Shown here: one piece after another, positions 46,204-59,292 of the stretch | Layout: the number at the start of each line of letters is the position of its first letter | Numbering within the stretch: the stretch's first letter is position 1 | NCBI RefSeq assembly: GCF_900220975.1 | Contig: NZ_OBQD01000015.1 | Span: 62,001 to 126,000, forward strand | DNA from: Rhizobium subbaraonis | GTDB lineage: Bacteria; Pseudomonadota; Alphaproteobacteria; Rhizobiales; Rhizobiaceae | DNA: 64,000 nucleotides | Reading direction: 5' to 3' | Translations under genes and position numbers: made by a program | The notes under the pieces: generated by a model | The model's database searches: none | Seen by the model: only the letters and a program-made list of their open reading frames with translations | Told to the model about the DNA's origin: nothing

Positions 46204-46336
46204 TGCACGAGATACAAATTGCCCGGATATCCTTCCGGGCAATTTGCTGTTGAGCGTCCAGTGCACGATAGGCGGTCGAAATCGACTTCCGGACGGGATC
46301 GTGCAGATATCGAACGAAAACAACCGGGGGCAGTCA

Positions 46337-51413: not shown

Positions 51414-53366
<1,953 letters not shown>

Positions 53367-53404
53367 TCTGCCGCTGCCTACGTAAGCCACTGATGCCGTT
53401 AACG

Positions 53405-53466
53405 ATTTCAAGCCGCCGAAATTAACCAGTTTCACCAAGAAGTGAATGCCGGAGGCGGCTTGAAAT
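53405..53466 (+). ncRNA. Candidate structured RNA between acsA2 and fbpB (long stem)
   Basis: Perfect 13-bp arms ATTTCAAGCCGCC (53405-53417) and GGCGGCTTGAAAT (53454-53466) enclose 36 bases. A smaller GGCGGC/GCCGCC hairpin and a rho-independent terminator follow within 170 bp. No gene fits the interval. This could be a small RNA or the structured 3' end of acsA2 mRNA. Confidence 0.4.
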
Positions 53467-53611
53467 TCGTCAGGTAAGGATTTGTTAAGGCGCGGGCGGC
53501 CATGGTCATTGCGACTTGAGCACGTCCAATGTGAGGACGATCGGCGGCCTTGCCGCCTTCATGGCATGACGTCGTATCCTGACGCTTTGGTTGGACAGCA
53601 TTGAATTGTGA

Positions 53612-53640
53612 CGGGCGGCCGAAAGGTCGCCCGCTTTTTA
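53612..53640 (+). terminator. Terminator downstream of acsA2
   Basis: CGGGCGGCC (53612-53620), loop GAAA, GGTCGCCCG (53625-53633) with one G-U pair, then CTTTTTATTT. A classical rho-independent terminator on the + strand. It abuts the stop of the convergent permease gene and lies 245 bp after acsA2, leaving room for a separate transcript. Confidence 0.85.
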
Positions 53641-55463: not shown

Positions 55464-58400
55464 TCACACTGCCAACACGCGCGGCGAGGGAAAGGTGACT
55501 TCCACCAACGTCCCCTCGTTCGGGCTGGAGTTGATGGCGAATTGGGCGCGGTTCGCATCGACCATCGCCTTCGTCAGCGGCAGGCCGAGCCCGGTGCCGT
55601 CGCCGCGCTTGCGCGCGCCCGTCGTCACCTGCCGGAACGGCTTCATCGCCTGCTCCAGTTCGCTGCGCGTCATGCCGACGCCGGTGTCGCGGATGCGCAG
55701 CACGACGCTGCCGTTCACCTCATAGGAGGTCGAGACGACGATCTGTCCGCCGGACGGCGTGAAGCGGATCGCGTTGGCAAGGATGTTGAGGGCGATCTGC
55801 TTGATCGAACGCAGATCCGCCACGACTGGCGGAACCGCCGTCGAAAGCGAAGTGCGGATGATCACCCGCTGGCTGTTCGCCTGTGGCTGGACCAGCGCGA
55901 CCGCCTCGGAGATGGTGTCGTTCAGGCCAACGGCGGTGAAGTCGAGCTCCATCTCGCCGGCCTCGATCTTGGAGATGTCGAGCAGGTCGTTGACGATATC
56001 GAGCACGTGCCGGCCGGACCGGCCGATATCGTTGGCATACTCGACATACCGCGGATGGCCGATCGGGCCGAAGCGCTCGCCGGCCATCATGTCGGAAAAG
56101 CCGATGATGGCGTTGAGCGGGGTGCGGATCTCGTGACTGACGCGGGCGAGGAATTCGCTCTTGTGCGCGTTCGCCGTCTCTGCCGCCCGCTTGGCGTTGC
56201 GCAGTTCCTCCTCGGTCCGTTTCCACTGGGTGATGTCGCGGATGACGGCGCAATAGCCGCTGGAGGAGGAGAGGCGCCCCATCGTCATGAACAGCGGAAT
56301 GAAGCCGCCGGAGGCCTCCCGGCCGATGACCTCGCGGCCGTCGTTCAGCACACTCGCGACGCCGTGGCCGGCGAGACCGGCGAGATAGTCGATGACGGCC
56401 TTCTGGCTCTCATGGGCGAAGAGGATGGCGAACGGCTTTCCGCGCACCTCTTCCTCGTCATAGTTGAACAGCGCGCTTGCCGAGCGGTTGATCGAGCGGA
56501 TCTCGCCTTCCTGGTCCACCACGACGACGCCATCGGTCGCGGTTTCGAGAATGGAACGCAGCTCGTTGGCTTCGTTGCGAAGCGCTGAAAGATTGGCAGA
56601 TTCGGCGACAGTGGCCTCGACCGCTGGCGCTTCTGCCTCAAACGGTGCTGCCGGCGAAAGTGCAAGCATGAGCGCGGTGCCGCTTTCCCAGCGGATGGAT
56701 TGCAGGCGCGCAGTGACGGGCGTGGCCGTGACGCCGTCCGCATGGTGCAGCAGCATCGAGCCCGGCTGGGCCGCGTCTTCCTCTTCCGGCTGGTCCAGCA
56801 GGATATCCAGTCCGCCGGCCTGCTCCAGTTCGTCCAGCGAGGCAAAGCCGGTAAGTGCGAGGAATTCCGGATTGGCGTGGATCATCCGGTCGCCCGCATG
56901 GATCAGGAGCGCCAACGGCAAGGCGTCGACGACCGATGCCGTCAGCCCGTAGTCCATGGCCGTCCTGGCTGCGGTGATCGACAAGCTCTTCGGTGGCGCA
57001 TCGTCGGCGTGTTCCCCGACCTCGAGGCCGGGGATCTCGTCGCCGTCCGCGCTCTGCCCGTCCGCCTGCGTCGGTTCCTGCGCCCTGGCGGCGGCCTCGG
57101 CCGCGGGAGGATTTGCAGCAGCGGACTCGGCCTTGCTCCCAATAGTCGGGTGTTGCCCGGCTTCGGCCTGCGGCGCTGCCGGCTGGTCCTGCTGCGGGAC
57201 ATCGCCGGGCTGGCGCTTGCCGAACGTCTCGCCGAGCTGGCGGGCGATCTCGCGGAAGGCGGCTTGCTCGCCGCTGGTCAGGGCGGAGCGTCCGCGTCGA
57301 TCGTCCAGCTGGACGACCTTGTCCGACTGGCGGCGGGCGGCGGGTTCGACGAGGCGAAGGGCAGGACGCTCGCCACGGAATTGGTCGTCGGCCTCGGTAT
57401 GGTCTGGACTGTCGGCGATGAGCGCGACGGTCTCTTCAGAGGAGGCAGGCGCCTCGCCCTCCATTTCCTCTTCCAGCAACTCGTCGAGCACCGAAGGCGG
57501 TGGCGAGATTTCGCCATGCGCCGCGTCCGCCAAGTCGTCCGGCATGTCGCCCGGCGCGTCGTCGGTCGAAATGTCTGCCTGTCCGAAATCGTCTACGTCC
57601 GGGACGTCGTGGGCGCCGATCTTGAGGCCAAGCCCGTTTGGATCTTCAACGGCGTCCGCGATCCGAACGATGCCGAAGCCGCGGAACCCGTCGAATTCGC
57701 GGCTACGCGAATAGGTGGGAAGGGCTGCCAGATCGACGGGCACGAGCAGGTTCGTTCCCTCGATCGGCCACTGGATCGTCTTGCCCGACCAGGTGTCGCG
57801 TCGGTGCAGCTGTTCCGCGATCGCACCGTCCGTATCGAAACCGAATCGGCGGGCGACCTCCGTAAACTGCACGCCGATCACGTCGGCCGCATGCTCTCCG
57901 ACGACCGCGGCGAACTCGTCGGAGAGCTCGCTGAATACGCCTTCCGCATCGATCTTCCAGACAAAACGGACAGGGCGGATCGACCGTTCGGGCTTGGCGG
58001 CTGCTGGTTCGGTATGGCTCTGAAGCGCCGGACGCGCGTCGTCTTCGCCCCCAGGCTGTGCCGCCTGGGCCGGAATGTCGGCGTCGGTAGTCGCAGGGGC
58101 GGGCGCGATGTCGCTTTCGGGAGCATCGCCCGTGGCATCAACAGGAATGTCATCGGCCGGCAGCTCCGTCGAAACGTCCGCAACCGGTTCGACTGCCGGA
58201 GGAGGTTCGCGCCCTTCCACCGGAACCGTCTCTATGGCTTCGGCCGGCTCTTGCGCCTGCATCGGCTCTCCGGCTGCCGGCAATTCCGCGAGGCCGTCCG
58301 CCACGATATCGCTTGAGAGGGATGCGCCTTCTCTCGTCGAGGCCGCGTCTGCAGGAGCCGCGCCGCCGGTCTCCTGTTCCGGGTCCATGTGGCCGAGAAT

Positions 58401-59060
58401 GGTTTCGACGGCGAAAAGCAGGTTGAGGGCCGGTTCGTCGGAAATCCGGCCGAGGGCGGCAGGCAGGAGGCCCTTGCCGGTTGGCACCGGGCGCTTGATG
58501 AGCCCGTCGGTCTCGCGCCTGGCAGCCTCCACCATCCGTCGCCGCGCCTCCTCGCTGATCCCGAGGCGGCCGAAGCCGGGCGAGGCGGCGACGATGGCCC
58601 CGTCGTCGCCGAGAACCGCCATGTGCGTATCCGGATCGTCGAAACCGACCAGCAGCGAAGCGGCCCGCTGCGCGATCGTCTCGCCCGTTCTTGCCGAAGG
58701 CGTGCTGAAGAGGATGGCGTCCTGGCCCGGCTGGAGCGTGATGCGCTCGACATGGGTGTTTACCGGCAGGCCGCGATATCCGGTGCCAATGCGCAAAAGC
58801 ATGCTGCGCCCGATCCCGCTATGCGGCAGTTGCCGCGCGGCGGCTGCAAGCTGGCGGAATACCACGTCGCCGGTGGGCAGGGGCGCGTCGAGAAAATCGT
58901 AGATCGACATGTGGCCGAAGAGCGCGGCGCCGCGGCCGTTCGCCCAGAGAACACTCTGCATATCGAGCGAAAACAGCACCACCGCCTCGCCACGGGCGAA
59001 CGGAAGGCGCACCCGTTCGTGCACGGCGACGTCTATAAAGGGGTACTGATGAGCGGACAT
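55464..59060 (-). CDS. cbrA: PAS-rich sensor histidine kinase CbrA
   Basis: The 1198-residue kinase belongs to the DivJ/PleC/PdhS group. No membrane helix is seen. Starting at ATG 59060, PAS-like segments lie near residues 10-110, 150-200, 390-500 (RFVWKIDAEGVFSELSDEFA), 740-850 and 855-980 (SILETATDGVVVVDQEGEIR), separated by long acidic, Pro/Ala/Glu-rich linkers. The kinase core has FLARVSHEIRTPLNAIIGFS (phosphorylated His about 976), NILANAIRF, DTGVGMT and GTGLGLPLTKA. Position beside the phasin gene matches S. meliloti cbrA, which controls DivK/CtrA, motility and the cell envelope; I infer orthology. Confidence 0.85.
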   Translation of the reverse strand: MSAHQYPFIDVAVHERVRLPFARGEAVVLFSLDMQSVLWANGRGAALFGHMSIYDFLDAPLPTGDVVFRQLAAAARQLPHSGIGRSMLLRIGTGYRGLPVNTHVERITLQPGQDAILFSTPSARTGETIAQRAASLLVGFDDPDTHMAVLGDDGAIVAASPGFGRLGISEEARRRMVEAARRETDGLIKRPVPTGKGLLPAALGRISDEPALNLLFAVETILGHMDPEQETGGAAPADAASTREGASLSSDIVADGLAELPAAGEPMQAQEPAEAIETVPVEGREPPPAVEPVADVSTELPADDIPVDATGDAPESDIAPAPATTDADIPAQAAQPGGEDDARPALQSHTEPAAAKPERSIRPVRFVWKIDAEGVFSELSDEFAAVVGEHAADVIGVQFTEVARRFGFDTDGAIAEQLHRRDTWSGKTIQWPIEGTNLLVPVDLAALPTYSRSREFDGFRGFGIVRIADAVEDPNGLGLKIGAHDVPDVDDFGQADISTDDAPGDMPDDLADAAHGEISPPPSVLDELLEEEMEGEAPASSEETVALIADSPDHTEADDQFRGERPALRLVEPAARRQSDKVVQLDDRRGRSALTSGEQAAFREIARQLGETFGKRQPGDVPQQDQPAAPQAEAGQHPTIGSKAESAAANPPAAEAAARAQEPTQADGQSADGDEIPGLEVGEHADDAPPKSLSITAARTAMDYGLTASVVDALPLALLIHAGDRMIHANPEFLALTGFASLDELEQAGGLDILLDQPEEEDAAQPGSMLLHHADGVTATPVTARLQSIRWESGTALMLALSPAAPFEAEAPAVEATVAESANLSALRNEANELRSILETATDGVVVVDQEGEIRSINRSASALFNYDEEEVRGKPFAILFAHESQKAVIDYLAGLAGHGVASVLNDGREVIGREASGGFIPLFMTMGRLSSSSGYCAVIRDITQWKRTEEELRNAKRAAETANAHKSEFLARVSHEIRTPLNAIIGFSDMMAGERFGPIGHPRYVEYANDIGRSGRHVLDIVNDLLDISKIEAGEMELDFTAVGLNDTISEAVALVQPQANSQRVIIRTSLSTAVPPVVADLRSIKQIALNILANAIRFTPSGGQIVVSTSYEVNGSVVLRIRDTGVGMTRSELEQAMKPFRQVTTGARKRGDGTGLGLPLTKAMVDANRAQFAINSSPNEGTLVEVTFPSPRVLAV

Positions 59061-59191
59061 CGGCAGCCTGTCATGGGTTCCCGGCGGCCACCGCCGCACG
59101 CTTAACGCTTTATTAATAGCGGCGGGCACTGCACGGGTCCAGCTTCGCCGCTCTCGCCGTCCCGCTCTTTCAGCCGGAAGGGTTAACGTTG

Positions 59192-59221
59192 TGCGCCGCA
59201 CAATAATGTTGCAACGCACAA
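59192..59221 (+). promoter_or_regulatory. Two PhaR boxes upstream of the phasin gene
   Basis: TGCGCCGCACAA (59192-59203) and TGCAACGCACAA (59210-59221) both fit TGCRNYGCASMA, the PhaR consensus as I recall it. They are 18 bp apart, start to start. The first is part of a perfect palindrome TTGTGC-GCC-GCACAA (59189-59203). PhaR represses phasin genes until polyhydroxybutyrate granules titrate it away. Confidence 0.7.
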
Positions 59222-59292
59222 TAAGATCGTATATAAGCAACTCATTCCGCAATCAGGCCCTCGTTGCGAGGGCTGTATCAAGGACGATTGAA

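Follow-up and report, generated by a model that had tools for sequence, protein, structure and literature searches.

Gene context and features of the interval

The window, that is, the whole 64,000-nt stretch of Rhizobium subbaraonis DNA that was analysed, contains a gap flanked by two convergent genes, one for an acetoacetate-CoA ligase (+, stop codon at 53366) and one for an ABC permease (-, stop codon at 53638), and the gene order around it is acsA (+), RNA (+), permease (-) and kinase (-). The ligase was identified with TIGR01217 (1066 bits, against a cutoff of 521). The kinase carries HisKA, HATPase_c and PAS domains, and its best model was the NCBIfam entry for PdhS, NF041593, with a score of 1013.7 bits that lies below the cutoff of 2000; from its position, we take it to be cbrA, SMc00776. 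In S. meliloti, acsA2 is SMc00774 and phaP1 is SMc00777 (PMC5596199), and the available text of a further study reports that cbrA transcription is CtrA-dependent (PMC4433202). The features considered here are the following.

53399..53403, + strand: TTAAC half-site at 115 nt from the 5′ motif, the more distant of the two (the window reads TTAACG)
53405..53466, no strand assigned: 13-bp inverted repeat around the half-site at -93, in the promoter region or an acsA2 read-through, outside the conserved RNA
53421..53428, + strand: ATTAACCA, a half-site whose conserved position is 93 nt ahead of the 5′ motif
53475..53488, + strand: TAA-N7-TTAA, a box of CtrA type that precedes the 5′ motif by 39 nt (conservation, published consensus)
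53514..53639, + strand: predicted small RNA gene (~125 nt) that begins with the conserved ACTTGAG and ends with the T-tract (alignments A3, A4 and A7; covariance matches)
53513..53592, + strand: closing stem P1, GAC 53513-53515 with GUU 53590-53592 and GAGC 53518-53521 with GCUU 53584-53587 (RNAalifold, pair counts)
53523..53539, + strand: hairpin P2, CGTCC/GGACG with loop AATGTGA (5 of 5 pairs changed on both sides)
53543..53557, + strand: hairpin P3, GGCGGC/GCCGCC (5 of 5 pairs changed on both sides)
53593..53611, + strand: stretch with an AGCA core, unpaired in the consensus, before the terminator (alignments, consensus fold)
53612..53639, + strand: intrinsic terminator and T-tract (7 of 7 pairs changed on both sides)
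55464..59252, - strand: linked gene for a PAS histidine kinase of CbrA/PdhS type (domain models, nearness in relatives)

A preliminary description of this DNA had proposed a separate transcript or an RNA derived from the 3′ end of acsA2, and the structures on which it drew are present: a perfect 13-bp stem (53405-53417 with 53454-53466, loop of 36), the GGCGGC/GCCGCC hairpin downstream (53543-53548 with 53552-53557), and the classical terminator, assigned there to 53612-53640 and found here at 53612-53633 plus the T-tract, with 9 bp of which 8 are G-C. The T-tract and the permease stop codon overlap. When 12 loci were aligned on one strand, the densely conserved part extended from ~53474 to the terminator. 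The RNA 5′ end is predicted at ~53514, at AACUUGAG, because the conserved block and the box spacing place it there, rather than near 53370-53500 as had been suggested. With regard to coding capacity, frame 1 of the RNA contains stops, the length differences between clades are not divisible by three, and the open reading frame listing includes a 40-codon ORF with a TTG start at 53482-53604.

Structure and covariation of the RNA

In the conserved RNA, a closing stem is combined with two hairpins that covary, a stretch without pairing and, at the 3′ end, an intrinsic terminator. Compensatory base changes, whose absence the preliminary description had named as counting against its proposal, were found in the stems of the RNA. 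Among 61 distinct sequences, 92.7% of cells were paired, compared with 76.6% in shuffled and 32-59% in slid versions, and changes on both sides occurred at 22 of 24 pairs, including every pair of P2, P3 and the terminator; since the underlying alignment (A7, 62 chosen loci) was fitted to the structure, these pair counts are favoured. The covariation score was 0.433, against 0.170 for shuffled data, and none of 500 shuffles scored as high. The inner GAGC part of P1 was paired in only 76.9% of cells in the 61 sequences. In the set of 12 sequences, 97.6% of cells were paired and 6 pairs showed changes on both sides.

The hairpins were also assessed without an alignment in 52 sequences, a check that omitted 14 Mesorhizobium-type sequences and L088. 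In this set, P2 has 31 different stems and P3 has 34, with mean scores of 5.07 for P2 (3.96 when shuffled) and 5.16 for P3 (3.61 when shuffled); the 95% level of a sequence’s own shuffles was exceeded by P2 in only 8 and by P3 in 25 of the 52 sequences. The closing stem is re-paired by clade, with CUUGAG facing CUCGAG or CUCAAG and CUUGGA facing UCCGAG. Swapping P1 partners among 53 distinct pairs (with kinship ignored) gave poorer pairing than the native partners in all 2000 permutations, and when one sequence was taken for each of the nine 5′ types, the effect was modest, with own partners better in 4862 of 5000 permutations and equalled in 138. The 14 Mesorhizobium-type sequences keep the closing stem and the terminator and have a different first hairpin. 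On the unguided 40-sequence alignment A4, RNAalifold predicted no elements beyond the terminator and a short hairpin.

The fold of 53367-53640 gave z = -2.44 on the + strand and -3.44 on the - strand, and the RNA proper (53513-53639) gave -2.38; when the terminator was left out, the minimum free energies of 17 representatives were mildly low (mean z -0.73, with 3 of 17 under -1). An RNA on the minus strand is not favoured despite the lower z there; the + strand is preferred because the T-tract, the box and the spacing fit it. The weak z-scores of the 17 representatives are what would be expected if a terminator and chance hairpins lay in the gap without any RNA gene, an explanation that we regard as highly improbable in view of the covariation and of the blind searches described below, which recover a single neighbourhood.

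Distribution across genomes

Within the genus, the gap DNA was found in 7 of 7 genomes, including the genome of origin, at 76-100% identity, and blastn in the family gave 14 of 297. A covariance model built from 12 sequences (R1), which is blind to the flanking genes, had matches at E ≤ 0.01 in 98 of the 394 genomes searched in the family; in 50 of them, the match reached E ≤ 1e-4. A search of 397 genomes of the order gave a best match outside the family of 1.6e-4; none of the 18 loci fetched outside the family had acsA or the permease as a neighbour, and they were taken as chance matches, as were two weak matches inside the family without these neighbours (L056 and L067). Among the 35 R1 loci L018-L052, which comprise the best family matches and five from the order search, 33 adjoin acsA. 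Conversely, 80 named acsA loci (532 kb, both strands) yielded 35 R1 matches at E ≤ 1, of which 34 lie at most 0.8 kb downstream of acsA and on its strand.

The better R1 matches came from Shinella, Ensifer, Neorhizobium, Pararhizobium and Rhizobium, with E-values of 5e-9 in R. leguminosarum and 2e-5 in R. phaseoli. Those from Mesorhizobium, Aquibium and Aminobacter were weaker (1.5e-4 to 0.023), but the box and the 5′ motif are present there. A Phyllobacterium locus (L104) is doubtful, with E-values of 0.31 for R1 and 0.0094 for R2, and no R1 match was obtained at the acsA loci of Brucella (L112, L113), Falsochrobactrum (L111) and Hoeflea (L100).

The broader model R2, built from 62 chosen loci, detected the RNA at E ≤ 1e-4 in 78 of 394 family genomes, representing 21 of 109 genera, and gave no match at this threshold in the other 316. 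The fetched stretches around the R2 matches (~1.6 to 4.5 kb) contained acsA, the permease and/or the kinase in all 78 cases. Four matches (L095, L097, L217, L223) span only 54-70 nt and are possibly incomplete or wrongly placed; L217 and L223 are among the 78. The location in a neighbourhood of acsA, permease and CbrA/PdhS-type kinase is shared across many genera of the family. The permease is absent between acsA and the kinase in 28 examined loci, some of them from Rhizobium and Mesorhizobium; there, the RNA is directly convergent with the kinase, and R1 matched at E ≤ 1 in 27 of the 28 (none in L114). At two loci of genus g97 (L032, L036), the RNA stands beside the kinase while acsA is missing from the fetched stretch, and six g18 loci have the RNA with acsA absent within 4.5 kb. 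The RNA persists in these loci without acsA and is tied to the acsA/permease/kinase neighbourhood, not to acsA alone.

A conserved box and half-sites upstream of the RNA

A TAA-N7-TTAA box at a fixed distance from the RNA, with further TTAACC half-sites, forms a conserved promoter region, which is predicted to span ~53399-53488 in the window. The reference for this box was the S. meliloti CtrA consensus TAA-N7-TTAAC, derived in a study whose available text describes a search only upstream of protein genes (PMC3616915). The window box matches 7 of 8 consensus positions, with G in place of the final C. Conservation was scored in 74 loci (67 distinct sequences), namely those that show the RNA pattern among 143 with an acsA C-terminus; a few represent one genome fetched twice (L040/L078, L021/L076, L024/L082), and the pattern requires ACTTG[AG], so that members with changed 5′ ends were counted separately. 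An exact TAA-N7-TTAA lies 38-40 nt before ACTTG in 40 of the 74 loci, and 66 have it with at most one mismatch, whereas 28,251 random positions in the same DNA gave no exact box and 0.15% with one mismatch. Other spacers (N3-N6, N8-N11) were found in none of the 74. In 29 further loci, the exact box occurs in 15, always at 37-39 nt.

The upstream half-site ATTAACCA is present in 36 of the 67 distinct loci, always 92-94 nt before ACTTG, and TTAACC is found 115-116 nt before the 5′ motif in 14 of the 67. While these positions relative to the RNA hold, the distance from the acsA stop codon to the RNA ranges from 82 to 395 nt. This bears directly on the proposal that the acsA2 mRNA is the source of the RNA, as a processed or stable 3′ end, in which case the terminator would be that of acsA2 and the structure would protect the 3′ end. 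Such a product would fit the shared strand of the RNA and acsA2, the presence of only one weak terminator-like site from the acsA2 stop to 53612, and the occurrence of acsA in 67 of the 78 fetched R2 stretches. The constant spacing of the box and half-sites to the RNA over a variable acsA distance, and the occurrence of the box and the RNA without acsA in the g97 and g18 stretches, make it quite improbable, and this half of the preliminary description is disfavoured. On the same grounds, a promoter of its own is probable for the RNA gene, whose product would then not chiefly derive from the acsA2 3′ UTR. The other half, read as a predicted separate small RNA, gains strong support from the conservation, the covariation, the fixed promoter-like box and the recovery of the same locus by searches blind to the neighbours.

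The box is a putative CtrA site. In 60 distinct sequences, the half-sites were the most informative positions and the centre of the spacer the least; the spacer occurs in 23 different versions. The register best fitting the half-sites was chosen for this profile, which favours them. The outer spacer bases, the GG before the box and the TG before TTAA are also well conserved, as might be expected if this were an ordinary -35 hexamer (TTGTTA) of housekeeping type or were bound by another regulator, so that the sRNA would be real and lie outside the CtrA regulon. The same could be said of the eight of 74 loci, several of them Pararhizobium-like, in which the box is degenerate and missing even within one mismatch, and of the many Sinorhizobium-type loci that read TAA-N7-TTTA instead of TAA-N7-TTAA. 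We nevertheless consider this rather unlikely: the 7-nt spacing of the half-sites is constant over the 23 spacers, no sigma-70 promoter was scored in the window region, and divergent clades show a full TTAA-N7-TTAA 38 nt before AAC, both in loci with AACGTGGG-type 5′ ends (L199-L203) and in the two loci beside the kinase without acsA (L032, L036).

In genus g94 (L209, L210, L211, L215, L216), the RNA 5′ end is changed and the promoter motif is placed differently, with TGTTAAGTCTTCCTTA in L209, L210, L211 and L215; another regulator may be in use in these loci.

The 13-bp inverted repeat

Among 300 dinucleotide shuffles of the region, perfect inverted repeats reached at most 10 bp, so the 13-bp stem is not attributable to chance. 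Across seven sequences of the genus, pairing is kept in 80.2% of the stem cells, compared with 27-59% in slid versions. Double changes affect 2 pairs, which is no more than in shuffles (283 of 500 reach that number), and the covariation score was reached by 28 of 500 shuffles. The preliminary description had regarded this stem as part of the RNA structure. The stem itself is real, but it lies at -109 to -48 and encloses the -93 site, and therefore belongs to the promoter region. The repeat could be relevant as DNA, through the arrangement of binding sites, or as a structure in acsA2 read-through. Elsewhere in the window, the sole other perfect repeat of that length (loops up to 60) is located at 46215-46246, CAAATTGCCCGGA, with a loop of 6.

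Comparison with known RNAs

Rfam 15 matched only a tRNA in the window. At E ≤ 1, the gap region gave STnc50 with 19.5 bits, below the gathering threshold of 55, and five relatives gave no Rfam 15 matches.

Several described sRNAs resemble the gap RNA in part. According to the available text on CcnA of Caulobacter crescentus, this origin-proximal RNA pairs through a CCCC sequence in its loop A with GGGG in the 5′ UTRs of ctrA and gcrA (PMC8959179). The likeness is that of a noncoding RNA that is presumably CtrA-activated and tied to the CtrA circuit; CcnA, however, is encoded at the replication origin and has the CCCC loop, whereas the gap RNA lies near a CbrA/PdhS-type kinase gene, and CCCC does not occur in the window RNA sequence. 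The same text notes no clear CcnA homolog in S. meliloti, and its authors left a rhizobial counterpart open (PMC8959179). EcpR1 (SmelC291) is likewise a conserved trans-acting sRNA of Rhizobiales linked to cell-cycle genes; it was rejected as an identity since the available report places its locus at divK-pleD/rpmG, whereas the gap RNA neighbours acsA, the permease and the kinase (PMC4414408). GspR (SmelC775) has a similar length, stem-loops and a cell-cycle connection. The available text reports it only in Sinorhizobium, with no known promoter signature and at the locus SMc03844/SMc03845; it was also rejected, as the gap RNA has other neighbours and occurs in 21 genera (PMC5928217).

It was further considered that the RNA may already be listed in S. 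meliloti, as SmelC132, SmelC151 or an RNA in supplementary lists. SmelC132 (757653-757739, +; available part of PMC2873474) and SmelC151 (843451-843524, +) of strain 1021, grouped here with the RFM set of S. meliloti sRNAs (PMC3927594, PMC2873474, PMC7143759, available texts), are chromosomal plus-strand sRNAs in the wider region, and they were compared by position only. To place the RNA in 1021, the locations of two riboswitches in seven related genomes were combined, by interpolation, with the coordinates published for these riboswitches; G777 had no usable cobalamin landmark. The resulting range of 755-803 kb, set against 757.7 and 843.5 kb for the two sRNAs, touches SmelC132, with the right strand, and SmelC151 has been reported Rhizobiaceae-wide with a typical terminator. 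In six of the seven genomes, however, the estimate was 778-803 kb, which leaves 20 kb or more to SmelC132 and 40 kb or more to SmelC151, and the microsynteny of SmelC151 is fragmented, unlike that of the gap RNA; a review table of S. meliloti sRNAs (PMC7143759) lists none in 755-803 kb. Prior listing is thus judged unlikely, with SmelC132 still a candidate and SmelC151 an unlikely match by interpolated position. The position 843141 in G783 agrees with SmelC151 by coincidence, given a chromosome of 4.3 Mb in which the 4.5S RNA is not at the place predicted from 1021.

The RNA ar7 did not serve as a ruler, because it lies on a strand other than that in the published table: ar7 (L191:11276-11419, L188:6093-6236) is on the minus strand, like the metZ riboswitch on the same chromosomes, while the published S. 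meliloti coordinates place the two on opposite strands. In G784 (genus g46), near-identical 103-nt elements with a strong terminator and a weak R1 match occur on two replicons (L193:4694-4796 and L195:4240-4342, -); they are perhaps another, multicopy RNA.

Searches of the open-access literature on acsA2, cbrA or CtrA together with sRNA yielded no description of the gap RNA. The main texts of PMC3927594, PMC2873474, PMC2245857, PMC2573895 and PMC3616915 do not name acsA2, and those of PMC2881028 and PMC5596092 do not name acsA.

Proposed role in the CtrA circuit

The alphaproteobacterial cell cycle is driven by CtrA. Our main reading, which we hold with a probability of roughly 0.7, is that the interval contains an independent noncoding RNA gene of ~125 nt that is CtrA-activated and acts in trans on the CtrA programme. 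It would probably represent a CtrA-activated sRNA family of the Rhizobiaceae for which no description was found in the open-access literature. As far as can be proposed from sequence comparison, CtrA would bind the predicted box at about -35 and turn the gene on in a cell-cycle-dependent manner, and the intrinsic terminator, whose sequence runs into the permease stop codon, would end transcription. The RNA would then act in trans; mRNAs of the CtrA programme are the proposed targets, and the means would probably be base pairing, by the loops or by the AGCA stretch left unpaired in the consensus. Base pairing appears likeliest; the main alternative is that the RNA binds a protein, by titration or as a scaffold, rather than pairing with mRNAs. 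That alternative accords with the pattern of conservation, in which the shape and short cores (AGCA, CATGA) are most conserved and there is no long invariant seed, but the RNA has no known protein partner, and we view protein binding as possible though the less expected mode of action. By pairing with mRNAs of the CtrA programme, the RNA would be placed in the circuit fed by the neighbouring kinase, from the kinase through DivK to CtrA.

In S. meliloti, EcpR1 and GspR act on cell-cycle mRNAs, and according to the available text of PMC4433202, depletion of CtrA gives cells that resemble nitrogen-fixing bacteroids. Searches of the open-access literature brought up no sRNA of this order with activation by CtrA itself. 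A scan for CtrA sites restricted to protein-coding genes, as in the available description of PMC3616915, would miss such a target. By analogy, and only tentatively, a CtrA-switched sRNA family beside a kinase of the DivK-CtrA pathway might feed back on the circuit and thus be a rhizobial counterpart of CcnA, though not by descent. The family supplies a defined gene of ~125 nt and a named promoter box in tractable species, which makes this question testable.
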